Below are positions 559-52,304 of a stretch of DNA of 64,000 bases, piece after piece. The translations under genes were made by a program, and so were the position numbers. Location: the NCBI GenBank assembly GCA_021234155.1, contig JAJEKV010000054.1, positions 992,001-1,056,000 on the forward strand, given 5' to 3'. Every line of letters starts with the position of its first letter. Positions within the stretch are counted from its first letter, which is position 1. The notes beneath the pieces are model-generated. The model was not told the origin of the DNA, made no database searches, and saw nothing but the letters and a program-made list of their open reading frames with translations. The DNA comes from Isoetes taiwanensis (Eukaryota; Streptophyta; Lycopodiopsida; Isoetales; Isoetaceae).

Positions 559-563
559 CTTGG
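559..563. repeat. Target-site duplication, left copy (CTTGG)
   Basis: CTTGG immediately precedes the TGTGACG end of the left LTR. The same five bases follow the CGTCACA end of the right LTR at 11791-11795. A 5-bp duplication is normal for Ty3/gypsy integrases. Confidence 0.9.
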
Positions 564-2172
564 TGTGACGCTCCCAGAATATATACGACCCTCGGACGTA
601 TACATACGGGGACTTTCCCCTCCCATGGCGAACATCTCACCATGAGCAGGGCCCTCCGTCTGTTTCGGGCCACCTATGAAATGAGGCCCGAAAGAAGGAC
701 ACGAAGGGGTCATTCGGCCCACGCCTTCAATGGGACTCCTACGTCGCGGAAGCATGAATACAAGGGTTAGCACACAGCATGAATATACATAAATAACCAC
801 CACAAAGGGTGGCGCATCCATCTAATATACCAACGGCATAGAATATGCATCTAATCCTAGGAAAACACCCAGAACCCAGGTTCTACCCCGGCTCAGACTC
901 CAGTGAGGATCGACTGACGGCTAGGCCTCAAGAGATCGTGCGGACCGAATCTTGGCATGGCGTTGGCGGGCAATAGAACATCGGCTAGGGTTGTCCACTC
1001 CATCCGCCCCTCCACACACACTTTGCGGATGGGTCAATTCATGCTATGGCTTTGCTATAGCCTTAGGAGAGCAGGTTCGGAGGAATCACCCTTTGAGCCT
1101 ACTCCAGGTTCATGGCGCTGGTCCGATGAGGCAGGTCGGGGAAGCGTCCCTTCGGAGAATCCGCAGTGGTTCCACGGGCGAGCTAGAGAATACGTGCGCA
1201 TCAGCGACCCGTATCCGTGCCCGACTTACTGCGCCCTAAATCTACTCAAAGTGCAAGGTGCTCCATACGGATCACACCTTCCCACTCGGGGAGTGTCGGA
1301 CCCATACCCGGCCCTCGTGACCCGGCTATCGGGCCTAGCCCAATCGTAGGAGTCTCGGGGAGCCATGTATGCTCATGCAAGACCCCACCCCTCATGTCAC
1401 CACCGTGTTCCTTGTGCGGTGCTAAGCCGGACCATAGCATCTAGGACCCGGTGGGTTCTTGTGCCTGAGCCGCAAATAATGGGACTCTATTGGGCTATCT
1501 AGGAGCATACTACAATACATGGTTCGAGAGGTCTCTACCCCGTAATCCCCCGTTTGAGTCGATTTAACGAAGAGCTAACAATTCATCCTCTCGGTAGAAA
1601 TCCGAATTGAATATAAAGAGAATTTGTTTGTACAACCAAGGGTTAGATTGAATCCCAAAGAGAAGAGAGAAACGGACACAACCAAGCGTTATCTAGAATT
1701 CACATAGCCACCTACCTGAATTACTGGCTGGACTCATTTCCATGGGGCTTCCATCTCGGGGGAGTTAGGAATTCAATTTCTTTGGCTTTGCACGGGGGCG
1801 ACTAGTATGGTGATTCTCTGCGGTGGATGATGGCGCGGCTCACGGCCTTCCTTGGTCGATTAGAGGAGTCAATCCCAGGGATAGGGGTCAAGTTGGCATC
1901 CAAACTTGGCAACCCCCATGCACCCCAATCGATTGGAGCAGGTGGCGCCTTCCCAAATGGTAATTAGCCCCACTTCCTAAGTTATAGGTTATTACTATTA
2001 CTGTGTTAAATTAGCATAGCTAATTTAATCCATTGTAAGGTAACCCCTTAGGTTGCCATCACGTTCCCATACTCCCATGGTAGCGTACCTTTAGGGGGGG
2101 TGACGTGCTTGTATTTGTACGTGCCTCGTATGAATACGTGACGTAGACCGTATAAATACGTGGAACGTCACA
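564..2172 (-). repeat. 3' LTR of the chromovirus
   Basis: It is 1609 bp, begins TGTGACGCTCCC and ends GGAACGTCACA. It matches 10176-11790 along its whole length. The first ~300 and last ~340 bases are almost identical to the other LTR, while the middle (about 880-1800) carries many small indels and substitutions. The U3 side in element orientation (about 2095-2172) is dense in ACGT cores. Confidence 0.95.
2095..2172 (-). promoter_or_regulatory. ACGT-rich start of U3
   Basis: In 78 bases there are repeated ACGT cores (GACGTGC, TACGTGCC, TACGTGACGTAG, TACGTGG, AACGTCACA). ACGT cores with TGACG or CACGT flanks are binding sites of plant bZIP factors, by general knowledge. Lying at the outer end of U3, the cluster could be the element's enhancer. 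It recurs in the other LTR at about 11713-11790. Confidence 0.4.
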
Positions 2173-2185
2173 TTCTCCCCTTCTT
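2173..2185 (-). other. Polypurine tract
   Basis: On the minus strand AAGAAGGGGAGAA abuts the TGTGACG start of the 3' LTR. This is the expected place and composition for the plus-strand primer of reverse transcription. Confidence 0.8.
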
Positions 2186-2821
2186 AAAAAATAATGCTGT
2201 CCTCAGCATTGGGGTCAACTAAACGAATGTATTTAATTAGAAAAATGGAGTTAAGAATATAACATTACTACGTTGAAATTATAGTATTTCTGACAGTAAT
2301 ATATATTGAAGTTACAATAGCAAAGTACAAGCACGAAGGTGCCTTACACAAGTTATCATCAAGAGAGTTTAGGACCACAGTCCGATTCAAAACATTTAGA
2401 CAACATAAATCACACATGTAGACAAAAGGACTACGGGAAAAGTTGGGTCATCAGCAACCCTCTAAACAAGGCAGGCGACGACCTGTTCACTGGCCTGCAC
2501 ATATCCATATACCCGTAGATTAATAATATGATGAAGGTGTGGTTAAAGGGGCCACCCCCTATAAAGAAAAATAGAAAGTATCTAGAAGGGAGTCTATCAT
2601 GTCTAGGGCTTGCAATTTATTGCGGCATAAGGAATGGTTCAGTTCCCGCATTGCTTGGGAATGAACGCGGTCTATTTACTATATGCTTTTTTCAAGCAAT
2701 GCGCTGGTCATGTCAACATCAACAATACACCACGTCCTAGAGAACACGAAGGTGATCTCATCATTGGTTATTGTTATAAGGTACGATGCATCTACCCCTC
2801 TAGAACATGATTCTCGGCAAA
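2186..2821 (-). other. 3' untranslated internal region of the chromovirus
   Basis: This is the stretch between the chromodomain stop and the purine tract. Short ORFs occur on both strands (for example 2528-2740 plus), but none resembles a known protein. I see no repeat or RNA gene in it. Confidence 0.6.
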
Positions 2822-3037
2822 TCAGCCTTCAAGCTTACCGCCGGAAGCGGGGTTGATAGCATCATTGATGGTGCGGCCTTGAGATTCCCGCATGAAGTCC
2901 GGATAGTGCTTCTCAAGGTCTATCTTCATCACCCAGGTAGCATCCTCAACTGGTAAGTGCTTCCACTTGACCAAGTATTGCAACATTTGAGTCCTCCTGG
3001 TCTGTTTGTAAGCTCGATCAAGAAGAGCTTCGGGCAC
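2822..3037 (-). CDS. Chromodomain at the integrase C terminus (frameshifted)
   Basis: The frame contains LQYLVKWKHLPVEDATWV, the core of a chromodomain with its aromatic residues (Y, W, W). It is followed by a short acidic/basic tail and a stop. In chromoviruses this module follows the integrase and is thought to steer integration toward methylated histone H3. Here it lies in a different frame from the integrase ORF, which ends at 3037. A one-base deletion near 3037-3040 explains the shift, since the two frames overlap exactly there. The apparent first codon is GTG and is not a real start. Identification of the domain is firm, and whether this copy makes a fused protein is doubtful. Confidence 0.85.
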   Translation of the reverse strand: MPEALLDRAYKQTRRTQMLQYLVKWKHLPVEDATWVMKIDLEKHYPDFMRESQGRTINDAINPASGGKLEG

Positions 3038-4056
3038 TATTTCCGTTGCTCTTCCCGCATTTCTAGGAGTGTTGGAGTATCCAAAACCTCCTCTGGATCA
3101 GGGGTGTGTTGCTTCAGAAGACTCACGTGAAAGACCTTGTGGATCTTCAAGCGGGGTGGCAAGTCCAAGCGATATGCCTGTTCTCCCACACGTTCAGTAA
3201 TCCTGAATGGCCCAGCCCATCTGGGTGCCAACTTCTTACAGTTCCCAATTTTAAGCTTGGCTTGTTTTACTTTGATCTTAAGCCAAACCGATTCGCCCAC
3301 CTGGAAGATCCGTGGGGTTCGGTGCTTATCAGCTAGACTTTTCTGACGACTGCGTGCAGCCAATAAGTAACCCCGAACTTCTTCCACCAAGGCCTGCATT
3401 TCTAGAAGGAGTTGTTGAGAGACCTCCACTTTAGAAACAGGATTATGCCATGTGTCTGGAGTAAGACATTGATAGCCATAATTTATCATGAAGGGAGACA
3501 TTCTAGAAGACTCCTGCTTTGTACTGTTGTAGGCGAATTCTACCAAGTAGATATAATCCGCCCATTGTGACTGTTTACTCCATACATAGCTTCTTAGCAT
3601 GTCTTCGATAATACGATTGACACGTTCTGTTTGACCATCTGTCTGAGGATGGTAGGCTGTACTCATGGCAAGCTTGGTCTGAATGGTGGCGAAGAAATCC
3701 TTCCAGAATGCACTGACAAACTTAGGATCCCTATCCGATACAATTACTCTTGGCATCCCGTGCAACCTGAAAATTTCCTTTGCAAAGAGCAAGGCGGTGT
3801 CGAAGGCGGTGTCCGTGGTGCGACATGGCAGGAAGTGAGCCATCTTTGATAATTTGTCGACCACGACCATTAAGGCATCATACCCACGGAGAGTACGTGG
3901 AAGCCCCACAATGAAATCCATGGTTATGACTTCCCACTTGGCGTTGGGCACATCCAAAGGTTGCAACTCCCCAGGAACTCTTAATTGCTCTGCCTTGGTT
4001 TGCTGACAAACCTGACACTGTTTGATGTACCTAGCAATATCCTTCTTCATGGAAGG
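3037..4056 (-). CDS. Integrase (Ty3/gypsy pol, part)
   Basis: The N-terminal zinc-binding part ends CQVCQQTK. The catalytic core follows with its DDE triad in VITMDFIVGLPR, VSDRDPKF and TERVNRIIED. The GPY/F-like C-terminal region has WAGPFRITERVGEQAYRL and KIHKVFHVSLLK. The preceding RT frame is continuous with this one except for a TAG at 4057-4059 in a position where the family has tryptophan (the YFWP motif), so this is a TGG-to-TAG nonsense change. Integrase inserts the cDNA copy into chromosomal DNA. The downstream chromodomain is out of frame by one base. The enzyme domain is otherwise full length. Confidence 0.93.
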   Translation of the reverse strand, partial: PSMKKDIARYIKQCQVCQQTKAEQLRVPGELQPLDVPNAKWEVITMDFIVGLPRTLRGYDALMVVVDKLSKMAHFLPCRTTDTAFDTALLFAKEIFRLHGMPRVIVSDRDPKFVSAFWKDFFATIQTKLAMSTAYHPQTDGQTERVNRIIEDMLRSYVWSKQSQWADYIYLVEFAYNSTKQESSRMSPFMINYGYQCLTPDTWHNPVSKVEVSQQLLLEMQALVEEVRGYLLAARSRQKSLADKHRTPRIFQVGESVWLKIKVKQAKLKIGNCKKLAPRWAGPFRITERVGEQAYRLDLPPRLKIHKVFHVSLLKQHTPDPEEVLDTPTLLEMREEQRK

Positions 4057-5823
4057 CTAAAAATAGCTGGAGCGGATCTTAAAGTAAGTTTTCATAAAAC
4101 CCGCATGTGCTGCTATAGGGCTGTTGTAGGTGTCATGGAGAATCAACTTTCGAGCCCCTGAAGTCACTGGAACACACAACTTATCTTTGTAATATAATAA
4201 GTTGCCCTCCTTCTTATATGAACGGAATGCTTCACGTTCTCTATCGGTACGGGCTTCCCTACCCAAACTTTCCCAAATATTACAGAATTCGGGATCTGTG
4301 GCCAAGGTCTGTTCTATCTGCTTCCCAAACTCGCTGGTGAGTGTGGAAATGGCATTACAATGGGTGCGGATTATAAAGGGATGACGTGACAAAGCATCCG
4401 CAACCACATTGTGCTTTCCTGGCTTGTATACAATCTCGAAGTCATATTCCTCAAGGAATTCCATCCATCTTCGCTGACGGAGATTTAGATTTGGCTGGGT
4501 GGATAGATAGCGGAGACTCTGATGATCCGTATCCAACTGAAATCTTCTACCAAGAAGGTAGTGTCTCCAAATACGGAGCGCACGTACAACTGCCAGCAAC
4601 TCCTGGTCATGGGTAGGGTATCGCTGCTCTGCATCATTCATCTTCTTTGAATCGTAGGCAACAACTCTCCCCTCCTGCATTAACACACCACCGGTAGCTA
4701 TCTTACTCGCATCGGTGGCTACCGATTTATCCTTTTCCGGATCAGGCAAGGTAAGGACTGGTGCCGATGTTAAAGCATCCTTGAGTTTCTGAAAGCCGAC
4801 TTGGACTTTTGTTTTCCAATGCTCCATCCAATCCTTTACTTGCTCATGTCTTGTGAGATTAGTAAGAGGTGCGGCAATTGTTGCAAAATCCTTAACAAAT
4901 TTCCGATAATATCCTGCGAGTCCCAAGAAACTCCGGACCTCTGAAACATTAGCTGGAATGGGCCAATCCTTTACTGCTTCTATCTTAGCTGGGTCTGTAG
5001 CAATTCCTTCTGCTGAGATAATATGCCCCAAGTAGTCCACCCTCGGAGTGGCGAACTTGCATTTAGAGAACTTGGCGAAGAGCTGATGGCGCCTTAGCTT
5101 TTGCAAAGCTAATCGAAGATGTTGTTCATGTTGCTGCAGGGTTTTACTATAGATGAGAATGTCATCAAAGAAAATGACAACAAAGTCATCCAAGTATTGG
5201 CGGAAGATGTCATTCATCAGCCGCATAAACGTTGCAGGGGCGTTGGTCAATCCAAAAGGCATGACAGTGAATTCATAATGCCCATATCGGGTACGAAAAG
5301 CAGACTTATGGATGTCCTCTTCCTTAATCCTTATCTGATGGTACCCAGAGCGCAAATCAATCTTTGAGAAATATTTTGCTCCTTGTAACTGGTCCATAAG
5401 ATCATCTGCCCTAGGCAAAGCATAGCGATTCTTGATGGTATGCTTGTTGAGTTGCCTATAATCAATACACATCCTTAAGGAGCCATCTTTCTTCTTGACA
5501 AAAAGAATAGGAGCGCCAAATGGCGAAACACTAGGCCGAATAAACCCCAAATTCAGTAACTCTTGTAGCTGTTTCTTAAGCTCCGCTAACTCCGGAGGAC
5601 TCATTCGGTACGGGGCCTTGCTGGTAGGCTTCGTTCCTGGTTCAAGAGTTATCTCACATTCTACCCCTCTAAAAGGAGGAAGCTTATGGATCTCATCTGG
5701 AAAAAGATCGCTAAATTCCCGAAGAAGGGTAGCAATATCTAATGGTAAGGCATCGATTTCTTGCTTCCTGATACATGGATTGAGACAAAAAGTAGGTATG
5801 ATACAATGGGAACTTTTAAAGTT
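4057..5823 (-). CDS. Reverse transcriptase-RNase H (Ty3/gypsy pol, part)
   Basis: The open frame runs from just below an in-frame stop at 5822-5824 to the nonsense codon at 4057, and the first ATG (5604) is internal. The upstream part has [17 protein letters not shown] and [17 protein letters not shown], typical of the N-terminal edge of Ty3 RT. Fingers and palm follow: [48 protein letters not shown], and the catalytic FFDDILIYS. RNase H has its acidic set in [22 protein letters not shown] and VVADALSRH. No DTG or DSG protease motif is seen between the upstream stop and this domain, although proteases normally sit there. The enzyme copies element RNA into DNA in cytoplasmic particles. Confidence 0.95.
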
Positions 5824-5877
5824 CTACTGGCACACAGCGTAACCACAACAACGAAAACACAACGGAAAAGACCAAGC

Positions 5878-6366
5878 CTAGGGGTTGGCGAAGGGGTACA
5901 GGATCGCGTAGCGGGTACTCTCCCGTACAGCTCGGACGAGTTTATAGCGTGCCCAGGCTTGGACAATGATTGCTTGGTACTCCCATGTTGGGCTGATAAT
6001 CAGAAGGTTAAAGAGCCTTCGCATCGCATAAAAGAGTTGCCAAAGATGGTCGTTGGCGTCCTCAAAGGCTTCGTGCCTGGTCATATTCCAATAGTCCCAG
6101 GTACGACACAGGGTCATCTTCAGATCCTCGAAAGCTCGATCCCTGAGGATGCTAACTATCTCTAGCCCTTTATCAGGGTCATAGAGTTCCCCTGGTGGCG
6201 GTGGTTCGGTTTCATAGCCTTCCTCCCACTCTGGATATTCATCATATCTCTGGCCATAGTCCTGGTCTGGCGGCCCGGGATCGTCCCTCCTAACCATGTC
6301 GGTAATTCTTTCCTCATATTCCCAAATGGTTTCCTCTGCAACATAGTTGGAGTGAATAGAGAACAT
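5878..6366 (-). CDS. Unrecognised 162-aa ORF between the H3 ORF and pol
   Basis: The ORF starts with ATG and is intact to its stop. The N-terminal half is acidic and tyrosine/proline rich (EYEERITDMVRRDDPGPPD, EPPPPGELYDPDKG). The C-terminal half is rich in tryptophan and aromatic residues (CRTWDYWNMTRHEAF, DHLWQLFYAMRRLFNLL) and looks helical. I recognise no domain. It occupies the place where gag C-terminus or protease would be in a standard Ty3 element, but it has neither CCHC knuckles nor a DTG motif. It could be a lineage-specific structural protein or a piece of a longer frameshifted ORF. Confidence 0.45.
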   Translation of the reverse strand: MFSIHSNYVAEETIWEYEERITDMVRRDDPGPPDQDYGQRYDEYPEWEEGYETEPPPPGELYDPDKGLEIVSILRDRAFEDLKMTLCRTWDYWNMTRHEAFEDANDHLWQLFYAMRRLFNLLIISPTWEYQAIIVQAWARYKLVRAVRESTRYAILYPFANP

Positions 6367-6579
6367 TTTGTAATTCCACTATACCCTAAACTTTAATGCT
6401 TTGGAAGAGGATGTCATAAAAAAACAATTTAGTTATGCTCATCAAGAAAACTTTGTATTTAATAAGTAGATAAGGTACACATTTTTTCAATATGGTTTAA
6501 ACAATTGCCAATCCCAAAATCTCATAACTACATGTGGGTATATATATGTATATAACAAAATTTATATAGCATCTTTAGT

Positions 6580-7981
6580 TCAGGAACTAGGCCCTGCCTC
6601 TTTATCCTTAGCCCTAGGAGGTGGTGGAGGCGGTCGGTGTCGCAGCAGAGCTACCCCAGGGTCCACGGTGGCCGCCGCAACAGATGCAACCTCTGGTGGA
6701 TAAGCAACGGCCAATGGGGCTGCCGTGAGGAGCTTCATGCCCATCCAAGGCGCAATATCCTGGCCCAAGGCCGTAAGGGCAAGATCCCGTCGTACGAGTA
6801 CATACGTAAACGTACGATAGGGAAGCTTCTTGTGGCCGGCGAGTGTAGAAAGTGCACCTGGGCCCACCATGAAGCTTTCAGACCTCGCCCCAAGTCCCGG
6901 GCTATGAAGAGAACTTGCCCGTGTTTGAAGGCCGACAAAAAGAAATCGGTAAGGTGGTTACCCAAAGACCTTCCCTTATGGAATTTCAGATGCGGCCACC
7001 TCCTTATCCAAGTCCATGGGGACTTCTTCCTCCTTGAGCTCCTGTTGCTCCTCCTTCTTGTGTGCAGGGTTATGATATAAATCTTCGCCCTCATCATCTA
7101 AGTCGGAGGGAACCTCAACCATATTAATGTTTGGGACGGGAGGTCCCATAGCCGTGAAGGCTTCGTGCGGTCGTGGAAGGCGTTCCCCGCATCACAAAGT
7201 CCCCAAGGCGTAATAAAGTCTCCGCCGGCTCTAGGGTCTCCTGACGGAACTGAAGCAGCTGGTACACCTCCGAAGGAAGCTCAGTAGAAGTGAAGTCGAT
7301 AAAATCATCCATGCAATACTCCGCAAGCTCGTAAAGTACATGGTCCTTGCGCTTGGCGTCTAATCCGCCACCATATGATAAGTCCAGATGATATCATCCA
7401 AGAGGAGGTACTCCTGCCCTTGGTGATAAATAACGGGGAGGCCGTCTAACCCTGACAAGCCTATAGCTTGTTCACGGCGCGGTGGTAACTCCTCTGCCAG
7501 CTCTTTCCAACCGGCGAAGTCGCCCATCCCTATATGCTCATCATCCCCCTCCTCGGAGGATTCCGGCAGTTTGCTCCTCTCTCCTGGCAAAGTCTCATCC
7601 TCAACATATTGGTCCATGAGGATAGCCGTATGCGAAAAGTAGCTTCCAAATACTTTGCTGCCCCCGATGTTGACTACCGGTAGGTGTTTTCCCCATCGGA
7701 GTTTCCCCTTGAGGACGCCAGACGCATCGTGTCCCCACCTAACATCTCACGGACGATCTCCGCTCCAAACATACCGGGGGGAGGATCCCCAAGAGGAATA
7801 CATAGAGGAAGGATTTCCTCCATGTAGAAATCAAGAAATCCGGCGTAGTCCGGGTGCCGCTGCATGTTGGTAAGGAGATCTATCTTGCCGCATAGCAAAG
7901 GTTGCAGCAGATCGAAGGGAACCTCGTGGATCCCATGTCTCTCCGATCATGGTACCAAAGGCAAGGTCGGGCGGCAGCCAT
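6580..7981 (-). pseudogene. Broken unrecognised ORF of the chromovirus
   Basis: A chain of open segments in shifting frames suggests one former ORF beginning at the ATG at 7979-7981. The segments lie near 7674-7898 (PLCIPLGDPPPGMFGAEI), 7360-7617 (acidic ESSEEGDDEHIG, then YHQGQEYLLLDDIIWTYH), 7124-7380 (DDFIDFTSTELPSEVYQLL), an acidic linker near 6990-7120, and 6580-6900 (ALSTLAGHKKLPYRTFTYV, ending in a proline run and AGPSS). At least four frame changes and two stops separate them. No family is recognised. By position it is a second internal ORF between the H3-bearing ORF and pol. Confidence 0.4.
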
Positions 7982-8185
7982 GGCGCTAGAAGGGAGGAGA
8001 GAGGAAAAGAAGCGTTTAAAATAACCCTACAGTCCCCTTTTAAACCCTCTTAATAAAGCTGATGTCAGCATTATATTTTAAATTTAACATGGAAAAAAAA
8101 ACATTAAACTTTTAATTCAAAATAAAAGCTTCTTTATTAATTATCACAAAAAGAATATGTACAAATGCGGATCCCCGCAAGTAGG

Positions 8186-9427
8186 CTAAGGTTGCTCCCC
8201 CCGTATCCTACGGGCGAGGGCTAAATCCTTAGGCATTATGGTGACCCTCTTTGCGTGGATAGCGCAAAGGTTGGCGTCACCAAAAAGTGCTACCAAGTAG
8301 GCTTCAGCAGCCTCTTGGAGCGCCAAAATGGCAAAGGTCTGGAAACGGAGATCGGTCTTAAATTGCTGTGCGATCTCCCGTACCAGCCTCTGGAAAGGCA
8401 GCTTCCTGATCAGAAGGTCCGTGGACTTCTGAAATTTGCGGATCTCCCGCAATGCCACGGTACCGGGTCGGAACCGATGAGGCTTCCGCTGCGGCCGAGG
8501 CTGTACAGGTGGCCCCGACGGTGTGGGCACAGTCTTCGCCCCAGCAACTGGTCGGGCGTTGTCAACCCGCTGCTGCCTCCGGTCGGAGCTGGTCTTCTTA
8601 CCAAAAGCCCCGACAGTCCTTAGCTTTTCCTTGTAATGACTGCCGGACTTATGGGCGACACCCTTCCTCCGGTGCTTCACGGTCTGGTGCGTCGGTTTTG
8701 GGTCCGGCCCACTCCCAGACGCACCTCCCTCTTGCTGGTCCCGCTGGTCTTGCCGGTCCCGCTCATCTTGCTCAATCTTCTCCCGCTCCTCCCGAGCTCT
8801 CCTCAGATCTTCTTGGATCTGAGCAAAAAGTTGGGCTGCGGCACGGCGATTAAGTTCGGCGTGGTACCGTTGTGGCCGCAGACCCATGTCTATCTGGATA
8901 GTCACCAGATAGTCTAGGCTAATGTCGGGGATTTCCCCCCATTCAAAACTGTTGGAACCCTCATGCCAGTGGTATGAGGGAACCTCGATGGCCCTGCCAT
9001 CAATGACGGCAAAGCCGTCCCCGAGGTACCGGTACTCCCTCCCCCGGGCTGCCGTGTCGGCCCGCTCAATCTCCCGGTGGTCATCCTCTCTGGCCAAACC
9101 CCTGATACGGTCGGCCTCTGCCCTGACATCTTCCTCCTCCGTATGGCCTTCCTGCTCAGGAGGATAAAACTTGATGAGCATCATTACCATGTCTGGTTGC
9201 TCAACAATGGTATATGGGAGCTGGCGTAGGTTCAGCCGGATAAGAAACGGCTCTGAGAAATGATAGATAGGATAAGGAATCCTATCATTGTTCTCAAACC
9301 TGTTGACCAGCTCATCCAACAAGATGTCGACGAGGGCTGGGTCAGTGGCCATGTGCTTAGCAATCATGGCGTAGATCTCCACGATGCTCAAGGTGGTTGG
9401 ATCTGGAGCGCTCTTGGTGATAGCCAT
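8186..9427 (-). CDS. ORF in gag position with C-terminal histone H3 core
   Basis: The frame is open from 9493. The ATG at 9425-9427 (MAITKSAP) is the likelier start, giving about 413 aa. Residues up to ~310 (numbering from 9493) match nothing I know: a helical N-terminal part, an acidic charged stretch ([16 protein letters not shown]), a segment with [18 protein letters not shown], and a coiled-coil-like run of R/E/Q. A basic Ser/Gly/Lys-rich linker follows. The last 99 residues (8189-8485) are a histone H3 core, starting [20 protein letters not shown], then [47 protein letters not shown] and RRIRGE. By eye about 84 of 99 positions equal ordinary plant H3. Loop 1 has no CENH3-type insertion, and the usual H3 tail is replaced. 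The ORF has no stop or frameshift, while the frames downstream are broken. It lies in the slot of gag, so it may be the particle protein or an accessory chromatin protein. Its function is unknown. Confidence 0.88.
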
Positions 9428-10161
9428 AGGGAAGGGTGAGAGGCGCCGGGCGCTAAGAAGATGGCAAAAGGGGCTAAGAGGCACAAGGCACAAAAAGCGC
9501 CAGGAGCGTGGTCCGTCCGGGCGGGCGATGGCGAGGGCTGCTCAGCGGTTGAGGCGCTGAAGCACAAACAAATGGCAAAAATTAGTTTGTTAAACGGCCA
9601 CTTAACTTTTAAAATTTCAAATTTTTCCTTTATTAACGCCGAAATTTTATTATTATAAAATTATACGACGGAAATACGCCGCCACATACTGGGCCGGGCC
9701 GAGGGCATTATATGGCCTTCCACCTCGACCGGCGCCGCCAAAAGCAAGCCGGGCGCCTGAAAGTTGACTTCGGCGGGCCCGCTGCTGACTCGGTCCCGAC
9801 GGGTCGGGCCGAGGGCATTTCGGCGGCCCCCACCTTGACTACAAAGCTTCAAAATGCAAGCGGCCGAAGTTTGTTTTTGGGCCTGCCCTTGACCATTTTT
9901 CGCCTAGAGTCGACTGTTCTAGGGTAATTCGGGTACGCCCGATCCAATGGAGCCATCCTCTTCATCATTTGAGCTACCTACTGACACCTGTTAGGCCTCC
10001 AATCTTGGGCCCTCCACTTCAAAGCTATAATTTCTTTACTTAACCTAACACCAAACCAAACAACAAAGAGAACTAACGACACATTGACTTAGCCTCCTCC
10101 TAACTACCGTGCTACGAGTTAGTGTTTGGCCAGTGCTATGATTTCGAGCAACCGAAATCAC
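9428..10161 (-). other. 5' untranslated leader of the chromovirus
   Basis: This lies between the primer site and the first ORF. It contains a GC-rich half (about 9660-9860, with GGGCCGAGGGCAT repeated at about 9693 and 9806) and an AT-rich part next to the ORF. No coding sequence is recognised. A packaging or dimerisation signal would be expected here, but none can be read directly. Confidence 0.5.
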
Positions 10162-10174
10162 GGCTCTGATACCA
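10162..10174 (-). other. Primer binding site, tRNA-iMet type
   Basis: The minus strand reads TGGTATCAGAGCC one base inside the 5' LTR. It is complementary to the 3' end of plant initiator methionine tRNA and fixes the element's orientation. Confidence 0.93.
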
Positions 10175-10175
10175 C

Positions 10176-11790
10176 TGTGACGCTCCCAGAATATATACGA
10201 CCCTCGGACGTATACATACGGGGACTTTCCCCTCCCATGGCGAACATCTCACCATGAGCAGGGCCCTCCGTCTGTTTCGGGCCACCTATGAAATGAGGCC
10301 CGAAAGAAGGACACGAAGGGGTCATTCGGCCCACGCCTTCAATGGGACTCCTACGTCGCGGAAGCATGAATACAAGGGTTAGCACACAGCATGAATATAC
10401 ATAAATAACCACCACGAAGGGTGGCGCATCCATCTAATATACCAACGGCATAGAATATGCATCTAATCCTAGGAAAACACCCGAACCCGTGTTCTACCCC
10501 CTCGCTGACTCCAAAGTGAGGATCGACCACGGCTAGGCCTCAAGAGATCAGCAGACCGAATCTTGGCATGGCGTTGGCGGGCAATAGAACATCGGCTAGG
10601 GTTGTCCACTCCATCCGCCCCTCCTGTGCACACTTTGCAGATGGGTCAATTCATGCTATGGCTTTGCTATAGCCTTCCGGAGACGCAGGTTCAGAGGAAT
10701 CACCCTTTGAGCCTACTCCAGGTTCATGACGCCTGGTCCGATGAGGCAGGTCGGGGAAGCGTCCCCTTCCAGAATCACAGTGGTTCCACGGGCGAGCTAG
10801 AGAATACGTGCCGCATCAGCGACCCCCGTATCCGTACCCGACTTACTCGCCCTAAATCTACTCAAAGTGCAAGGTGCTCCATACGGATCACACCTTCCCA
10901 CCCAGGGAGTGTCAGACCCATACCCGGCCCTCTACGTGACCGGCTATCAGGCCTAGCCCACTGTAGGAGTCTCAGGAGCCATGTATGCTCATGCAAGACC
11001 CCACCCCTCATGTCACCACTGTGTTCCTTGTCTGGTGCTAAGCCAGACCATAGCATCTAGGACCCGGTGGGTTCTTGTGCACAGGCCGCAACTAATGGGA
11101 CTCTATTGGGCGCTATCTAGGAGCATACTACAGTACATGGTTCAGAGGTCTCTACCCCGTAATCCCCCGCTTCGCAGAGTCGATTTAACGAAGAGCTAAC
11201 AATTCATCCTCTCAGAGTAGAAATCCGAATTGAATATAAAGAGAATTTGTTTGTACAACCAAGGGTTAGATTGAATCCCAAAGAGAAGAGAGAAACGGAC
11301 ACAACCAAGCGTTATCTAGAATTCACATAGCCACCTACCCTTAATTTGACTCATTTCCATGGGGGCGCTTCCATCTCCGGGGAGTTAGTTAGGAATTCAG
11401 CCGCCACGCACAGGGACGACTAGTATGGTGATTCTCTCAGGTGGATGATGGCGCCACTCCCCGCCTTCCTTGGTCGATTAGAGGAGTCAATCCCAGGGAT
11501 AGGGGTCAAGTTGGCATCCAAACTTGGCAACCCCCATGCACCCCAATCGATTGGAGCAGGTGGCGCCTTCCCAAATGGTAATTAGCCCCACTTCCTAAGT
11601 TATAGGTTATTACTATTACTGTGTTAAATTAGCATAGCTAATTTAATCCATTGTAAGGTAACCCCTTAGGTTGCCATCACGTTCCCATACTCCCATGGTA
11701 GCGTACCTTTAGGGGGGGTGACGTGCTTGTATTTGTACGTGCCTCGTATGAATACGTGACGTAGACCGTATAAATACGTGGAACGTCACA
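10176..11790 (-). repeat. 5' LTR of the chromovirus
   Basis: It is 1615 bp with the same ends as the 564-2172 copy. It is adjacent to the primer binding site, hence the 5' LTR on the minus strand. It differs from the other LTR by scattered small changes in its central part. Confidence 0.95.
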
Positions 11791-11795
11791 CTTGG
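11791..11795. repeat. Target-site duplication, right copy (CTTGG)
   Basis: This is the second copy of the five bases that precede the left LTR at 559-563. Confidence 0.9.
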
Positions 11796-13628: not shown

Positions 13629-14217
13629 TTACCTGTTCTAACAATATTGTCAATATCTTGTTTCGTGCAACAAACTAGAGAGAACAAATCGTGGCAATTG
13701 TTGTACCAAAAGCATAGCCCCAACAAATAAAAATTGATTCCTTATGTGGCATTTAGCTTTTGTCGCCTTCATTTGCACCACAATATATTTTCTAGTTTCT
13801 CAAAAAAGTTTGTTGCTCTCTTACAGTTCAGATCTAAGCTTCATTAACATTTCTAGCATTTGTGTTACAAATTTCTTGGTAGTCTATCCATTTACATGTA
13901 TTTTAAAGTTTATGAAGTTGGACGCTTCATTATGGCATTGGAATATTCCATCATGATGAAGCCCGAAGTCAGTGAATCCATTCATTTTTACATGTCCAAA
14001 CAATCTTGTTCTATATAAGCTTTTTCATTTGCTGCATATCACTTTTCCATTGCACGATCTCTGATTTGGACAAGCCATTGCACATGTACTGGTACAAATC
14101 AAGACCAGCAGATGATGTTGCACATCGATTTGAATTAACAACAATTCTTTATTTTGCTGAGACTTTGTAGTCCAGGAGTGCCAATCCAAGTCAATATACA
14201 TGTGGTTTTGTTGGGTG
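13629..14217. other. No recognised gene
   Basis: This is AT-rich sequence. Short ORFs (13744-13956 plus) lack any recognisable domain. Confidence 0.4.
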
Positions 14218-14329
<112 letters not shown>

Positions 14330-14375: not shown

Positions 14376-14423
<48 letters not shown>

Positions 14424-30704: not shown

Positions 30705-31911
30705 TTACACATCAAGGTCTTTTGCCATGTCGTAAAGGTCCAGTAGCTCTTTCCTTGACCTGTCATAATCTTGAAGATACATACCAAGTTTTATAAACTG
30801 GTAGATTCAAAAGCTCGTGAAAAGAATCGCAGCTGATATCATGCTGTGCCCTTAGGTAGTCAAAAGCTGAGCAATGGAGAAGAGCATGTCGTTCATCTTC
30901 TACTTGAGCGTCTAGGCAGCAAGGACAAAAACGCAATTCACGTGGCATATCCTGCTCTCGTCCCACCTCAATTGCCAGTCTATGTGAACTTAGGCGCATG
31001 CAAGAGAGAAGCTTCCGCTTTCCTCTACTAAGCTTACCATTTAAATAATCCTGCTCGCCATAGACTATCATTGCATTTACTTCTTCCCTGTAAAAGTTTC
31101 TTTTTGTCCCAAGATCTCCAACTGGCCACAATTTCAACAGAGATTTATTGGTCACTAAATCTCGAATCCCTATACTAGATGAAGGTAGATCATCCAGTCC
31201 AATGCTCCAATAGCCTGCCCACTCTTCTAAATACTTATACCATCCCACATGGGATTGGATCATAGATTCTTGCAAGGCTTGTCTCGACAATCTGTGGTCT
31301 TCTAATTTTTGTATTCTACCAAAATACTCTAGTGTTTGACAAAGGGCTTCCACTTCAAGCGGATACATACCTGTTTCTGCAAGCAGCATCTCATATGGGG
31401 TCTGAGTTTTAACTCCCAATTCTTCAAGCAAGAAACGCTTTTGAACCTTCCACTTTGATCGTGCAAGACCAGGACCCCAGACCATGCACCCATATAGTAC
31501 CACTGTTTGAACCAATGTCCGAAACATTAATTTACGGAGATGCCAACTCCAGATATGGTTATGTCTGCAATAGCTGAGCATATGATATAGTGCCCTTAGC
31601 CCCCCCGATATTCTCTTCCGGACTCCGCTATTCCATTTATAGTTATTTGTCAACTCTATGCCCAAATACTTGTATGATTTGACCTGTTCCAAAATCTCTC
31701 CATCAAATTCCATATCTGCTTTTTGGCGAGAACCCATCACCATCACCTTCGTTTTCCCTTTATTCACATTCATACCAGCATAGACACAAAATTTCTCAAG
31801 TCCTTGAAGAAGTTTTTGCAAACCCTGTGGTGTTTGAGAAACAAGTACCACATCATCATCAACATGAATATAATTGCATATCAGCATTATATTCATTGTG
31901 CAATTTACCAA
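30705..31911 (-). mobile_element. LINE (non-LTR retrotransposon) fragment, 3' part of ORF2
   Basis: The 382-aa minus frame (30763-31911) begins inside the reverse transcriptase palm at HVDDDVVLVSQTPQGL, a changed YADD catalytic box. It continues through VNKGKTKVMVMGSRQ, SYKYLGIELT, LVQTVVLYGCMVWGPGL, and a C-terminal zinc-like segment CPCCLDAQVEDERHALLHC. After VYKTW a frame change leads to LGMYLQDYDRSRKELLDLY and a stop at 30705. This is the usual layout of plant LINE ORF2 downstream of the RT core. The 5' half, including the endonuclease and most of the RT, is absent. The truncation is typical of LINE insertion. It is not functional. Confidence 0.9.
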
Positions 31912-38469: not shown

Positions 38470-40471
38470 ATGTATTAAGATGAACAATGTGCTATGTCTT
38501 TCCACATGTCTATAATATATTTCGAATTTGGATTTGCTTCTACCTCTTGCCATTGGCATCCTGCATAATGAATAGCATCTAAATTTTCATACCTTGAAGG
38601 ATCGGAAGGATTAGGCCGCCAACGCTTAGTCAAGCAGTCTTTTGTAGTCCCCTCCAAAGAGGCTTCCACCACGATACAAAAATATGGCCAAAATATGTAG
38701 ATTCCGGATCAAGAACAAAAGATTCTCCTCTGCATATCCTAACCAAGTGGCGTTGTTATCATCTCCTGTGTCCGACTAGAACAAACATACCCTTTGTCAC
38801 ATGTGCGTGAGGATCAAACTCTTCAAGAGGCAACACCGGATGACCATCCGACGGGCCACAATAAGATGGTAAAGGTCGTGTGACCAAGGCAGATATCGTC
38901 GACCTCTCGAACAAATGTTTGTTTGTTCTAGAGGAGCTTGTCTTGTTTGTGGCCAAAATGCATCATTTTGAGGACGTCCCAAGCAACATCCTCCAAAGAG
39001 ATAAGAAGTCGGCTCCAATACTCAACACTTGCCGTGTATTGCCTTGCAAACAAGCTACTTTCTTGATTCTTACATATGTCCTTCCATAGGGAGATGTATT
39101 TGTTGATGCTATCCTTCAACCCCGAAGATCTTTCAATGTTGGTCTAGGAGGAATATTTTGTGGCACACCACTTGGTATCATTGGCTGACCATGTTCATCC
39201 TCTTTCCACATTCTAACTCCCGGAGAATCTGCTTTGGAAGCCACTCTTTATGTGTAGGACGCATTTTGTATTGCATAACGTGGCCAATCTCCCCGCCATC
39301 TTAAATTTGAAGAGCAATGGTTCAAGATGCCCAACCAGGCGTTGGCCCTTATCGGGATGAATCCCTTCACAAAATCCTTCCAATTTGGAACTTCATCAAT
39401 AAAGTATGGAATTGGGGATTTTGCATTGCATTTGCTAAACAAGTAAAGTAGCTCGTAGTGTCAAAGCATCCAACCTAACTCATCAAGGTTGAAAAATTTC
39501 CAAATAAAGCATCAATATCATCATGGGTGTGGCCGACCATCATAAAGCCCACTTGGATCTCATCAAAGACCTTAAGCCAAGTCAAATAAGATAAGTATGA
39601 AAAGACATACCTATTTTTGTTTTGCCTTCACGCATTATCAAGTTGCAAATAGAGATTTCGGGAAGAGGGTTGAACACCTCAGATTCGTTGTAGTTGAAGT
39701 ATTTGGCAATACTTCTCCCATGGAAGCAAGTTTGTTCTTCAAAGGATTGATGTCCTTGACCGCTTGCATCCATTTGCAATCTGCAGGCTTACTTCCACAT
39801 AAGTCACCTATCTTGTCCTCTTGCACCAATTCCAAGTTATGCAATATTCTAGAAAGTGAACCAATGTGGAAGTTTGAATCATCTTTCCATAAATCAAGTG
39901 AAAAATGACCATAGGCACGACCACCATGCCCATGAGTCAAAGCTCCCATCAAAACCGCTCTTCAAGCGATCACCTCTCCATACGATTTTGCTAGATGATG
40001 ACTTCTAGGCACTAAAGTCTTAACCTGATCCATCTTATCATGTATTATACATAGATGATTTTCAGGAGACCGCTGTGACAATGCTCTCCAATGCCAATAT
40101 TGACTTCTGCAAGAGCGTTGCTCTAGCATATGAGCCCGACGTTGAATTGCAAGATTTCGTCTCTCTCTTGTATCTTTTGTTTTTTCCAGCTTTTGCTTAA
40201 TTACCACGCAGATGTTGCATTTAGAGAAGGCTGTATTTTTTGCAATGCTAACATCTGGAAATTCCCTTTTCCATATACTATAAAAAGAGTTCAAGGCTAC
40301 AGTTGTTCCTGTAAGCTCTTCAACGACTGCTCCAACTTCTTTATGTATAAGCTTCTTATTAAGAATGGAAGGAAGCTTCCGTACATTTTCTCTTACATCA
40401 TCTCTACCTCTTTTTGCTCCTATGGGGAATACTTTCAAAGATTCTCCCGAATGAATCTGTCTAGCACACAT
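38470..40471 (-). pseudogene. DUF7869-like gene, broken C-terminal half
   Basis: Minus-strand blocks carry the signature order of a plant family I know as DUF7869 (name from memory). 39962-40471 has FSKCNICVVIKQKLEKTKDT, ERRNLAIQRRAHMLEQR and IIHDKMDQVKTLVPR. 39850-39952 has GALTHGHGGRAYGHFSLDLW and NFHIGSLSRILHNLE. 39481-39556 has QVGFMMVGHTHDDIDALFGN. 39248-39442 has PIPYFIDEVPNWKDFVKGF. Frames change between the blocks and the central LQLDNC-type motif is not readable. The VGHTH-DDID box and acidic residues have suggested a transposase-like nuclease origin for such proteins, though this is not shown here. It continues from the 40586-41632 ORF upstream. Confidence 0.65.
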
Positions 40472-40585: not shown

Positions 40586-41632
40586 CTAAAGCCATGCGCC
40601 ACCCAAAATGACAATTCCATCCCCTTGAGCACTATCCTGTCCTCTCCTTCTCACATAAGTCACACTCAAAGACGTCAAAAAAAATACGTAACCCTTTGCA
40701 TTGTATGGTTGAGATAAAAATTCTTTTCTTAATTCACATACTTGATGCTTGGTAAGTTTCTTGTTGCAAGTATTTTTGCAGCAGCTTGTCTTCATGAACT
40801 TATTGATTGAAGTTGTGGAGCATAGCCTTTCCTCTTTGCTCTTTCCCTTGGGTTGTCTTGGAATCCTATGTGTGTAAGTATACTTCCTTTTTCGTTTGAA
40901 TTGAGCCTGAATGTTGTCCTCAAAAGATTCTATTTCCATATCCTCATTTTCTTTAGCTTCTCGAGCTTGCAGATGTTGTGAGACAGTCCTTCCATCCTGC
41001 AGCATCACATCGCTATTTTCCCATTGTACAAGGTAATTTTCTGCTGGCCTTTCTGCACAAGCATGACATTTGAGATCCTCTGTAATTAGTGCAGGAAGGA
41101 TCTTTCCCACACAGAGCCCCACCTTTGAGTCTCCTAAAAATTCATCGTCAACAGCATCCTGGGGATCACTGAAGACAATTATGGCCTCTGCATATTTACT
41201 TCGGTCACATGCATGAAGAATGTGGCAATGCTTATCCAAGAGATCGGTTCTTGAGAAACTAGGTGGTGGTTCATCATCATCTGATGCTATCCTCGCGAGG
41301 AAAACGCGTGTACCTAGATCCAATTGTAGGATCAATTTCTTCATCGCATCGACATTGCCTCTACGCATTCTACAATCGAGGTCGGTGATGGAGTAAGCTA
41401 AATCAATGGCATGATATCTTATATCTTGCCGAGGCCATTCGATAAACGTGCCCACAGCCTCTTCAATGTTGTCAGCGCCATCACATGGAATCGGAAGGAT
41501 GTGGGTAGGCACCACAGCCTCGGTAACTTGCACTCCTACGTTGAGTGCGTCAACATTCTTCCCATGGATGCAAGTTCTATTCACCAAGACACCCTTACCA
41601 ACCACAGTATTATTACTGACAAGGTTCACCAT
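40586..41632 (-). CDS. N-terminal part of the same gene (DUF8039-like plus CC-motif)
   Basis: The 348-aa open frame starts VSNNTVVGKGVLVNRTCIHG and continues VTEAVVPTHILPIPCDGADN and EEAVGTFIEWPR. This is the pattern of small plant domains catalogued, from memory, as DUF8039, often found in transposon-linked proteins. A central acidic region follows. A basic segment (KRKRKYTYTHRIPRQPKGKS) precedes SINKFMKTSCCKNTCNKKL and CELRKEFLSQPYNAKGYVFF, a cysteine motif that usually precedes the DUF7869-type domain. The downstream piece at 40471 is in another frame. A second copy of the first domain lies just upstream (41800-42019). Function is unknown. Confidence 0.6.
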   Translation of the reverse strand: MVNLVSNNTVVGKGVLVNRTCIHGKNVDALNVGVQVTEAVVPTHILPIPCDGADNIEEAVGTFIEWPRQDIRYHAIDLAYSITDLDCRMRRGNVDAMKKLILQLDLGTRVFLARIASDDDEPPPSFSRTDLLDKHCHILHACDRSKYAEAIIVFSDPQDAVDDEFLGDSKVGLCVGKILPALITEDLKCHACAERPAENYLVQWENSDVMLQDGRTVSQHLQAREAKENEDMEIESFEDNIQAQFKRKRKYTYTHRIPRQPKGKSKEERLCSTTSINKFMKTSCCKNTCNKKLTKHQVCELRKEFLSQPYNAKGYVFFLTSLSVTYVRRRGQDSAQGDGIVILGGAWL

Positions 41633-46136: not shown

Positions 46137-47754
46137 CACTACCTTGAAATGGCAGACAAGATTCTGAGGGGCAAACACACGAAGGATGTCAATCGGTTTG
46201 TCTTCATGCCAGATGATGTCTATGCACTCTTCCGCCAGATGTGGAACAAATGGAGGAAGGGAGAACTTAAGGACAACAGGGGTCAAGCTATAGTAATTAA
46301 TTTTGCTAAAGACAAAGATTACTTAGGATAAACTACCTTAGATGCATGAGGGGCTTGGACTATGATGATTGTAGAAAGGTCCTCGAAGAAGCTTTAAGCG
46401 GGGATATATACGTCAAAGTCACCTCAGATTACAAAGGCGATAATTTCTTCAAGACGAGGGCGCAGAACTTAAGAGTACTTGCTTACATGAAGAAGGAGAT
46501 ACTGCACTTCATTGCAGATCAAATTGGCACTAAGTACAAGAAATTCGAGGACCTAAGGAAAGCCACAGACCACTTCTCAGATTCTGCACTTCTGGTTTGG
46601 GGGGTATGCCACCATAAGTGGGTACAGGAAGGAATACTCAAAGAGGGAGTTCATGGTAACATGCCATTCTCCTTGGCCAGGTCCATTCGAAAAATCCTTC
46701 AGCCTGAAACAGAAAAGGCTTTGCCAAGATGGTTTGTGGAGCATGTCACTGCCGGGGGGATTCCGAACGAACGTGCAGTTCTACCTGCCAGCATGATATG
46801 TTTAGATGCAAGGCAGCTTACTCCAGCTTGGAAAAGTGAGACTGTAACCGCGTTCTTCGATAATGTCTCACGGATGATGTACTTAAGAGACATACTGGAT
46901 TCTATGTTTCGTCGGTAGGAGCATAACTTACTATTTGCCAAAGTCGCTTTGAAAGACTAGAATCCGTGTCTAGAGTGTTTGTAGGAATCTATGAAGAAGA
47001 GCCCGAGCTGTGTGTGGTTCAGAATCAAAGAGCCACAAGCTCTTCTATTTGCTACGAGGATTTCGCACGCAGGGGGGAGAGCCCCGGACGAAGACCGGAC
47101 CTTAGGCTATTTGGCGACCATCCTAGAAAGCTCCCCGCAAATTCCTCCTATTCCTAAGGAAGCCATCTAAGTGAGGGCGATGTTATGGCTAAAAACTCAT
47201 GCAAGATGTGTTTAAGTGGAGTTGGCGGTGGTATGGAGGGAGAATATCCGGTGCATAAACAGATTGGTCCCGCAATCTGCGTTCTACCTTGTTGATAAGC
47301 TCGCCCTCAAGGTAACATTGTACTAGATTTCTTCTCCTCGGTGGAGCCTTCTCTAGGGCATCCCTTCATGTAGGAAGAATCGGTGTGACATACGAGCATG
47401 AGTTAGGAAAGATGAAATGCGTGATGGCATTCTCGGGTAGGGTCGAGAACGCCATGTACCCCCGCTTGACCCAAAGGCCATTGACCAACGCCAACGGAAG
47501 TCTTGACTTTGCAAGATGGTGAATCTCGGAAGGGCGACGAAGAAGCTTCTCATACGAGAGAAAGGTGAGACGTCGGCCCAAAGCCGGAGCAGAGCGGGGA
47601 TCAAATTGACCGCAAGAAAAATTAACCCGGATGATTATGAGAAAGTCTCGATGAACACTTCGCCAATGACTATTAAAAAAATACGTATTTTGAAAAATTG
47701 TATCTATTAATATATATATCTACATGGTCTTACGAAAATATGTGTTATCTATAG

Positions 47755-49860: not shown

Positions 49861-50556
49861 TCATCTTCTTACCCAGACCACCTCCCTAGCTGCTAATGAA
49901 GCTGCATTGTATTCTGCCTCTGCTGTTGACATAGCTATACAACCCTGTTTTTTGCTTCTCCATGATATTGTGCTACCACCAACTTGTAAAATGTAACCTG
50001 AGGTTGATACTCTAGTGTCCATGTCTCCTCCCCAATCTGCATCAGAATATGCAGTTAGCTCAAGGCTATTATTTGAAAATGTTAAACCTTTATTATTAGT
50101 TCCCTTCAAAAATCTGAGCACATACTTTGCTGCACGCCAATATTGCTTTCCTGGGTTATTCCCAAATCTACTCAACATATTCACACAAAAGGCTATATCT
50201 GGTCTGCTACAATTTGCCACATACAGGAGGCATCCTGCTAGTTCCCTATATGGATAATCCTCCATCTCCAATATTTCCTTTTCACTTGTAGGACGTAAAT
50301 CCAATGACACTTTCTGACCTGTGACCATAGGAGATCTTACATTATTGCATTCAACCATTTCAAATTTCTGCAACATCCCTTGAATATTGCTGTTTTGAGT
50401 TAAGGTAATCCTTTTATGCTCTCGATCCCTGTGTACTTCAATCCCAAGGAATCTTTTAAGAGGTTCCAAATCTGTCATCTTGAATCTGTTGCTCAGTAGA
50501 TTTTTGCACTGATTTAAGCATTGTAAATTATCACTTACCATAATATTATCATCCAC
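49861..50556 (-). CDS. Copia RT (C-terminal part) and RNase H
   Basis: The frame starts at the YVDDN-type box (DDNIMVSDN) and continues FKMTDLEPLKRFLGIEV, YRELAGCLLYVANCSRPDIA, AAKYVLRFLKGT, and RNase H AYSDADWGGDMDTRVSTSGY then STAEAEYNAASLAAREVVW. The initial tyrosine/valine of the catalytic box and the preceding part lie in another frame (50612-51070). RNase H degrades the RNA of the hybrid during cDNA synthesis. Confidence 0.92.
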   Translation of the reverse strand: MDDNIMVSDNLQCLNQCKNLLSNRFKMTDLEPLKRFLGIEVHRDREHKRITLTQNSNIQGMLQKFEMVECNNVRSPMVTGQKVSLDLRPTSEKEILEMEDYPYRELAGCLLYVANCSRPDIAFCVNMLSRFGNNPGKQYWRAAKYVLRFLKGTNNKGLTFSNNSLELTAYSDADWGGDMDTRVSTSGYILQVGGSTISWRSKKQGCIAMSTAEAEYNAASLAAREVVWVRR

Positions 50557-50611
50557 ATATAATGCAATGATACAAAAATGATTTTTCTCCCTATAAGCAT
50601 ACAGATTACCA

Positions 50612-51070
50612 TCATTCTCCAGTTTTGTTGAATCCTTGCTCTCTCAAAAAACCATCCATGCACAAGTACCATTGCCTTGGAGACTGTTTGAGACCATAAA
50701 CATCTTTCTTTAGCCTCCGTACTGTATTTTTCCCTTGCTCAAATCCTTGAGCTTGCTGCATATAAATTTCTTCATGTAGAGCAGCATTCAAAAATGTTGT
50801 GTTGACATCCATATGGTAAAGTTCAAGATCTAGTGCATTAGCAAAAGCAAGAAGAACTCTCAAGCTTGTTAGTTTAACAATAGGAAAAAAAGTCTCATCA
50901 TAATCAATACTTTTTCTTTGAGAGAAACTTTGTGCAACCAGACGCGCCTTGAATTTTTGTTCCCCATCATTACCAACCTTCAGTTTGTATAGCCATTTGT
51001 TTATTAGAATATTTCTATTTTTAGGCTTCTCCACCAATATCTCATCTCTTCTTCCAATGCACTTTTCCAT
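50612..51070 (-). CDS. Copia RT, N-terminal part
   Basis: INKWLYKLKVGNDGEQKFKA, RLVAQSFSQRKSIDYDETFF, LLAFANALDLELYHMDVNTT, FLNAALHEEIYMQQAQGFEQ and VYGLKQSPRQWY are the fingers and palm of Copia RT. The frame stops at FNKTGE shortly before the catalytic YVDD. Confidence 0.92.
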   Translation of the reverse strand: MEKCIGRRDEILVEKPKNRNILINKWLYKLKVGNDGEQKFKARLVAQSFSQRKSIDYDETFFPIVKLTSLRVLLAFANALDLELYHMDVNTTFLNAALHEEIYMQQAQGFEQGKNTVRRLKKDVYGLKQSPRQWYLCMDGFLREQGFNKTGE

Positions 51071-51123
51071 TGGTCTGTATTTTCTGAATTTAGTGCTTCC
51101 TCATAAAACTATTCTATTCTATT

Positions 51124-51863
51124 CTATTCCTCATAATTTCTAGGCACACTAAGCTCCAGAATTGCCATTATATCATTAATCTCAATGTTGAAATTTTGCA
51201 ACCTTTTTGATGTACCAGCAGGCGTTCTTCCATGTTTTTCACGATCTATGTCATTGAATCCTTCTCTCAATCTCTCAACCTCAGTACTTTTCTTCCTTAT
51301 GGTCATTTCTTCTGTTTTATTTTCCACATGTTTATCAGCTTCTTTTTCTTTGTTTTCTTCATAGTGGTCTGATTGTGTTGTCTCCTCATCTTGATTGTTG
51401 TGATCTTCAACTGCAAGTTTATCATCATCTTCTACATATGAATTTACTTGTGCATCCTTTACCTCTGCTTTCTTGTGTTCAATATTGCCAAACAGGTCTT
51501 GTCTACCATCAATTTCTTTTCTATTCTTGTAGAGTATAGTTTCATTAAACTTCACATCTCTGCTAACAATGATTCTTCTTTCCTCTGGAACATAAATCCT
51601 GTAGCCCTTTGACATTTCATCATACCCTACTAGAAATCCTTTTATTGCTCTATTGTCAATTTTTTTCTTACTTCCTTAGGTACATGTGAGAAAGCCATAC
51701 AACCAAATGCCTTCAAATATTCATACCTTGTATTTGTCCTGCTCCACAAGTTTTCAGCTACCTGACCATTTAGGCTAGAAGAAGGTATTCTATTTTGAAT
51801 ATGAACAGCTGCTCGTACTGCTTCTTCCCATAAGAAATTAGGTAGACCAGATTGCTTTAACAT
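51124..51863 (-). pseudogene. Copia integrase C-terminal region and linker
   Basis: 51642-51863 reads GLPNFLWEEAVRAAVHIQNR, YEYLKAFGCMAFSHVPKEVR. 51124-51615 reads GYRIYVPEERRIIVSRDVKF and then a charged acidic linker. These are the conserved segments after the integrase core. Two frames are used. Confidence 0.85.
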
Positions 51864-52276: not shown

Positions 52277-52304
52277 GCATCCATAGCAGACAAAGTCATT
52301 ACTT

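Follow-up and report, generated by a model that had tools for sequence, protein, structure and literature searches.

Can a retrotransposon carry a histone of its own, and if so, of what use is it to the element? The question is raised by a stretch of 64,000 nucleotides from the genome of Isoetes taiwanensis (contig JAJEKV010000054.1, positions 992,001 to 1,056,000 of the forward strand), below called the window, in which an open reading frame of an LTR retrotransposon, ORF1, ends in the core of histone H3. A preliminary description, made from the letters alone, had placed this frame in the gag position of a complete chromovirus flanked by target site duplications (TSD) and had proposed that a host H3 was captured and might serve in genome packaging, nucleosome mimicry or targeting.

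The carrier of the H3 is a Ty3-type chromovirus LTR element. Its two LTRs with CTTGG on both sides, the polypurine tract and the primer-binding site (PBS), which we take to be of the initiator tRNA-Met type, are all in place (Table 1), and the assignment to the chromoviruses is borne out by the order reverse transcriptase, RNase H, integrase, with the chromodomain after it, which are Ty3/gypsy chromovirus features present in the window copy. A hAT transposase and terminal inverted repeats are not among the features of the carrier, which is an LTR element with reverse transcriptase, integrase and chromodomain. Contrary to what had been claimed, however, the element in the window is not complete, because the Gag-protease stretch is skipped: relative to another copy, C1064, about 1.94 kb are missing, and with them gag, the zinc knuckle and the greater part of the protease; ORF2 is broken too. 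The LTR pair differs by a K2P distance of 0.0508 (of 1593 positions compared, 49 show a transition and 29 a transversion); at the grass rate of 1.3e-8 per site and year, which may not fit Isoetes, this would be about 2 million years.

Table 1. Positions in the window of the H3-carrying element and its parts
Feature	Position	Strand	Basis or remark
Element	564-11790	(-)	LTR comparison, window copy
5' LTR, 1615 bp	10176..11790	(-)	
3' LTR, 1609 bp	564..2172	(-)	
TSD CTTGG, two copies	559..563 and 11791..11795		
PBS TGGTATCAGAGC	10163..10174	(-)	
Polypurine tract AAGAAGGGGAGAA	2173..2185	(-)	
ORF1, 413 aa	8186..9427	(-)	
H3 core of ORF1, corresponding to H3 K37-A135, without canonical tail	8189..8485	(-)	
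ORF2 remnant	6580..7981	(-)	stops and frame changes in window copy
ORF3, 162 aa, open	5878..6366	(-)	
Deletion junction	5767..5772	(-)	versus copy C1064
Reverse transcriptase and RNase H (pol part)	4057..5604	(-)	Pfam
Integrase core and Tf2-1-like SH3 domain (pol part)	3037..4050	(-)	Pfam
Chromodomain PF00385, E 4.9e-9	2825..3097	(-)	frame differs from that of the integrase in window copy

Elsewhere the window contains a Ty1/copia remnant (RVT_2, Pol_BBD; 49861-52760, minus strand), a reverse transcriptase remnant that by reading is LINE-like (RVT_1; 30763-31911, minus strand), and long (CAT)n and (CTAT)n microsatellites at about 14217-14328 and 14378-14423. Three further open frames of 169, 348 and 190 aa (39962-40471 and 40586-41632, both minus strand, and 46346-46918, plus strand) have no Pfam match at E up to 0.001.

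ORF1 is, as had been reported, one uninterrupted frame. It lies on the minus strand, the earlier description having named no strand; the plus frame has six stops. Residues 304-409 match the Pfam family Histone (PF00125, E 4.9e-41) and residues 312-412 match H3 chains in the PDB, best 7ux9_E, an H3.3 (E 4.1e-51). By hand count 85 of the 99 core residues from K37 to the end are identical to the commonest H3 of I. taiwanensis, close to the 84 or so estimated by eye. In front of the core (residues 315-413) lie an acidic N-terminal region (1-240) and a basic linker (241-314). For residues 1-312, a search over 3380 candidates gave no homologue at E up to 1. When all of ORF1 was the query, ordinary H3 dominated the result (5442 of the 8000 candidates scored), and the best 120 cover at most 41% of the query. 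No Gag capsid or zinc-knuckle match was found in Pfam at E up to 1. The AlphaFold2 (AF2) model of ORF1 has a mean pLDDT of 43 and is unusable. The centromeric H3, CENH3, has a longer loop 1 than canonical H3. The ORF1 core lacks this longer loop and aligns to plant H3 over 99 residues without insertion.

According to the preliminary description, an H3 segment confined to this one copy would have pointed to a chance insertion. A search of the I. taiwanensis assembly (1,658,258,908 bases in 1110 contigs) with ORF1 gave at least 101 genomic matches, 77-100% identical and mostly spanning residues 1-413, and many copies share the same junction; since scores were given to the best candidates, the number is a lower bound, and the sample favours intact copies. 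By hand count 67 of the best 101 are free of stops and 34 have at least one. For ORF3 there are at least 150 matches, and in 35 of 38 hand-matched pairs ORF1 and ORF3 lie on the same strand at a spacing of 1.77 to 2.01 kb. When plant H3 was the query, the best 15 of at least 150 matches were canonical host genes (97-99%); the other 135 (72-87%), many of which coincide with ORF1 matches, are taken as copies of the family's H3, in the following called retro-H3. The fusion is not a single accident.

Retro-H3 is under strong purifying selection. Over 46 copies (1035 pairs) the core has a dN/dS of 0.038 at a dS of 0.58, as against 2.7 and 5.8 for the same letters read in the two shifted frames, and 81% of the core differences fall at third codon positions. 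Among themselves the 15 host H3 genes have a dN/dS of 0.015 (93 of 105 pairs unsaturated). Along ORF1 (NG86, 30 copies) the stretch ahead of the core has 0.125 as a whole, with about 0.05 in residues 1-140 and about 0.2 in the linker; the core itself has 0.058. The N-terminal half of ORF2 (0.069, 14 copies), its C-terminal block (0.128, 9 copies), ORF3 (0.072, 14 copies) and a short piece of Gag (0.000; 8 rows representing 7 copies, L031 and L065 overlapping in one copy) are comparable, and the H3 part is therefore about as constrained as the other proteins of the element.

From where did the H3 come? In a tree with 46 of the 48 compared copies (L030 and L082, broken at the core, were left out) all retro-H3 lie on one side of a branch with 100/100 support and the 15 host H3 genes on the other, with the caveat that the bootstrap is not fully settled. 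That an H3 was captured and has been kept is thus supported by many copies with one junction, a purifying dN/dS and a clade apart from the host genes. Between retro-H3 and host H3, identity is 64-73% at the DNA level and 83-90% at the protein level, with synonymous sites saturated in every one of the 690 pairs. As far as the compared copies go, the capture was a single one, and it is old. Position 77 is E in the host H3 genes; of the 48 copies 17 have E and 29 Q, those far from the window copy tending to E and the nearer ones to Q. This pattern fits a capture from the plant lineage of the quillwort and is no proof of it.

Assembled from the window copy and C1064, the order in the family is LTR - ORF1(H3) - ORF2 - ORF3 - gag - protease - RT/RNaseH - integrase - chromodomain - LTR. 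The gag position given to ORF1 therefore has to be corrected: in other copies the real Gag-protease region lies downstream of ORF1, ORF2 and ORF3. Gag sequence was found in 8 of 10 downstream loci read (in 2 of the 8 in fragments) and is absent from L035 and L038. The region in C1064 has matches to Ty3_capsid and Retrotrans_gag, both interrupted by a frame change and slightly short of the cut-off, a CCHC motif (E 0.03 to 0.06), a protease above the cut-off (RVP_2, E 3e-13) and a match to RVT_1. By these matches C1064 has a Gag with capsid and CCHC knuckle as well as an aspartic protease. ORF1 is an accessory gene of this Ty3 chromovirus family.

ORF2 is open in C1064 (locus L064; 467 aa), with a sub-threshold Pfam match only (E 0.09); ORF3 has no Pfam match. 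When 8000 candidates were scored for ORF2, two relatives came up at E up to 1, namely P0122 and P0123 (43% identity over 98%); they lie on short ENA contigs (3374 and 2953 bases) and are themselves free of Pfam matches; ORF2 therefore exists outside the I. taiwanensis family. The ORF2 alignment found nothing in viral contigs. The idea, suggested by eye, that ORF2 contains an H2A and ORF3 an H2B found no support: small HMMs made from typed histones score no higher than with shuffles, the profile-profile probability is below 1 with shuffled columns often as high, searches of PDB profiles list no histone, and several residues aligned by eye are not conserved in the distant relatives P0122 and P0123. 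With such small typed profiles no signal of H2A, H2B or H4 rose above shuffles in ORF2, ORF3 or the other frames of the window.

Two side observations concern ORF2. The spacer between ORF1 and ORF2 (window 7982-8185, minus strand) contains TGACGTCAGC or a close variant, as do eight other copies, the stretch in L005 being covered in part. Mostly there is also a TTAAAAG resembling a TATA box, and directly ahead of ORF2 a pyrimidine run leads to AG or GG; these signals are candidates for a promoter of its own or a splice acceptor. A low-confidence AF2 model of the L064 ORF2 has three alike hairpin-plus-helix units (residues 62-80, 103-125 and 184-205), two of them similar in sequence (LPVVQHQGQQYL and LPVIHHQGQEYL), which are possibly internal repeats.

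Which parts of the histone were kept? The canonical H3 tail is missing, as had been noted, with the basic linker in its place. Remnants of the tail were looked for in the linker, whose scores in six copies lie within those of shuffles (equalled by 293 to 1785 of 2000). For the first 25 residues the score against the H3 tail is slightly higher (equalled by 60 to 213 of 2000 shuffles), a result carried by few residues. In 14 of 36 copies the tetrapeptide ARKS, the sequence context of H3K9 and H3K27, is found, by alignment in the linker, and the tail of ORF1 is therefore not clearly unmodifiable. The 36 copies are those of the 48 in the protein alignment, rows with stops and some close stop-free rows being excluded.

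Compared with a typed plant H3.3, the core differs in 48 of 48 copies at positions 54, 86, 87, 89, 102, 105, 107, 124 and 125. Some of these nine are presumably near chaperone-contact surfaces, and host chaperones may therefore refuse retro-H3. The positions that we take to make the H3-H3 contact (106, 109, 110, 113, 114, 116, 123, 126 and 130) are kept in 34 to 36 of the 36 aligned copies, as are most of the presumed DNA-contact residues; Y41 is F in 10 and S86 is T in 36. The equivalent of K36 is R in all 36. At the patch 87-90, 35 of these copies have FAIL, versus SAVL, TAVL or HAVL in the 15 host H3 genes; according to the accessible text of a review on viral histones, this patch directs H3 variants to assembly pathways (PMC9145170).

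From these observations we propose that, before the spread of the compared copies, an ancestor of the family captured an H3 core and joined it to an N-terminal part of about 310 residues. The ORF1 protein would pair with the host's H4 and enter nucleosomes as a tail-swapped H3 variant; pairing with H4 is suggested because the presumed H3-H3 and DNA-contact residues are kept. That ORF1 is an H3 variant incorporated together with host H4 is probable on this pattern of conserved residues. Silencing of transposons in plants acts largely via marks on the H3 tail. The likeliest benefit would lie at the element's own chromatin, where nucleosomes that lack the canonical H3 tail and have R in place of K36 would escape normal marking, which would weaken the silencing of new copies. 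As the purpose of the protein taken alone, anti-silencing is put forward tentatively. Equally provisional is the wider formulation, in which the chromovirus-made variant sits with host H4 on the element's own DNA and new insertions are either shielded from H3-tail silencing or marked for the chromodomain integrase; if it is true, a retrotransposon brings its own chromatin. For the explanation as a whole, a captured host H3 core kept as a tail-swapped nucleosomal variant with a benefit at the chromatin, we consider the chances to be even. A tail-less H3 core under strong selection would give a transposon a direct route to act on chromatin.

Alternatively, ORF1 could be a tether: its N-terminal part would bind Gag and integrase in the integration complex, which the H3 core would dock on chromatin via nucleosomes, together with the chromodomain that the family also has. 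Residues 1-140 equal the H3 core in constraint (dN/dS about 0.05), which makes a second partner likely; moreover, ORF1 keeps a constant distance to ORF3 in 35 of 38 pairs, with Gag next in 8 of 10 loci. Against this, no relative of the N-terminal part turned up in Pfam or among the 3380 candidates at E up to 1, and targeting of this kind appears rather unlikely.

The protein might also serve in packaging: together with host H4 it would compact the reverse-transcribed DNA into nucleosome-like particles, either ahead of integration or immediately after it. Such a role would suit the basic linker and the retained residues presumed to contact DNA and to form the tetramer, and it has a parallel in the giant viruses, which, in the text available of the same review, arrange their DNA with histones of their own (PMC9145170). 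The family, however, already has a Gag with a zinc knuckle, and since small typed profiles gave no signal of H4 (or of H2A and H2B) in ORF2, ORF3 or other frames of the window, the particle would need to take up H4 from the host. We regard packaging as improbable and incorporation into chromatin as more likely.

That the H3 is a passenger, a host fragment transduced by chance and copied without use, would agree with two papers that, in the parts consulted, describe plant LTR elements as commonly transducing host genes (PMC7264820, PMC13317346), and with the inactivation of H3 copies carried by hAT elements in several fungal species, so far as the text at hand covers them (PMC6710886). A passenger would drift toward a dN/dS of 1, however, whereas the 46 copies have 0.038 at a dS of 0.58, with the shifted frames above 1 and the frame intact in 67 of the best 101 rows, and this origin is highly improbable. 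Just as hard to sustain is the view that ORF1 serves as Gag and that H3 has become its domain for binding nucleic acids: ORF1 is the first long ORF after the PBS and the window copy is without gag, but ORF1 is not Gag because a separate Gag-protease follows ORF3 in C1064 (Gag in 8 of 10 downstream loci), and at E up to 1 it has no Gag match.

How does the proposed tail-swapped variant compare with known systems? In the open-licence literature, judged by titles and the openings of abstracts, we found no report of an LTR retrotransposon that carries a histone, nor of a chromovirus in which an H3-core fusion is under strong selection. Accessory ORFs that are kept across copies, and some of whose proteins are nuclear, have been described in plant LTR elements; in the part of the review consulted they are most frequent between pol and the 3' LTR, whereas ORF1 lies upstream of gag (PMC7264820). 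The word histone is absent from the main text of that review. In orchids, Ty3/gypsy elements carry a captured ORF with an m6A RNA demethylase domain (PMC9289625). There too, as far as the accessible text goes, an extra ORF from a host gene family was kept through rounds of replication; it encodes an enzyme acting on RNA, whereas here the product is a structural protein of chromatin and the carrier a chromovirus in which two further ORFs precede gag.

A captured H3 that spread to many copies is known from fungal hAT transposons, to judge from the passages available of two papers. In Pyrenophora tritici-repentis a hAT DNA transposon carries an H3-like gene, H3L, in 26 almost identical copies, judged to be recent and possibly subject to drift; H3L has insertions in the tail, changes in the fold and a neighbouring ORF of unknown function, and its authors ask about altered chromatin (PMC3538342). 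Pseudocercospora fijiensis and relatives have hundreds of hAT-carried H3 copies, inactivated by RIP, in some species all of them, and with no evident use in the text consulted (PMC6710886). Carriage of H3 alone therefore shows no function. The fungal carriers are DNA transposons with a near-whole, intron-free H3 coding sequence, whereas here an LTR element has the core behind a 310-residue part; and the fungal copies are recent or RIP-inactivated, whereas those of Isoetes are old and diverged, with a dN/dS of 0.038.

The nearest known mode of action is probably, by analogy, that of the single viral histones: the H4 of a bracovirus (CvBV-H4) and the single H3 of Manila clam xenomavirus and of DSLPV1 (PMC9145170). 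In the accessible text of that review, whose main text does not contain the word retrotransposon, these are captured one at a time, have a host-like fold and often a longer N-terminal part, and lack a partner histone; the bracovirus H4, which has an extended tail, enters host nucleosomes (PMC9145170). Retro-H3 is close to host H3, and a second histone was not found with small typed profiles. The patch 87-90 is altered in a comparable manner, the single viral H3s having SAIL and TAIL (PMC9145170) and retro-H3 having FAIL. The viral proteins come from DNA viruses or virus-derived particles, whereas in Isoetes an N-terminal addition of about 310 residues replaces the H3 tail in a retrotransposon. 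To the DNA viruses and fungal hAT DNA transposons with captured histones an LTR retrotransposon is thereby added and, in contrast to the fungal cases cited, one with old, diverged copies and clear selection on the protein.
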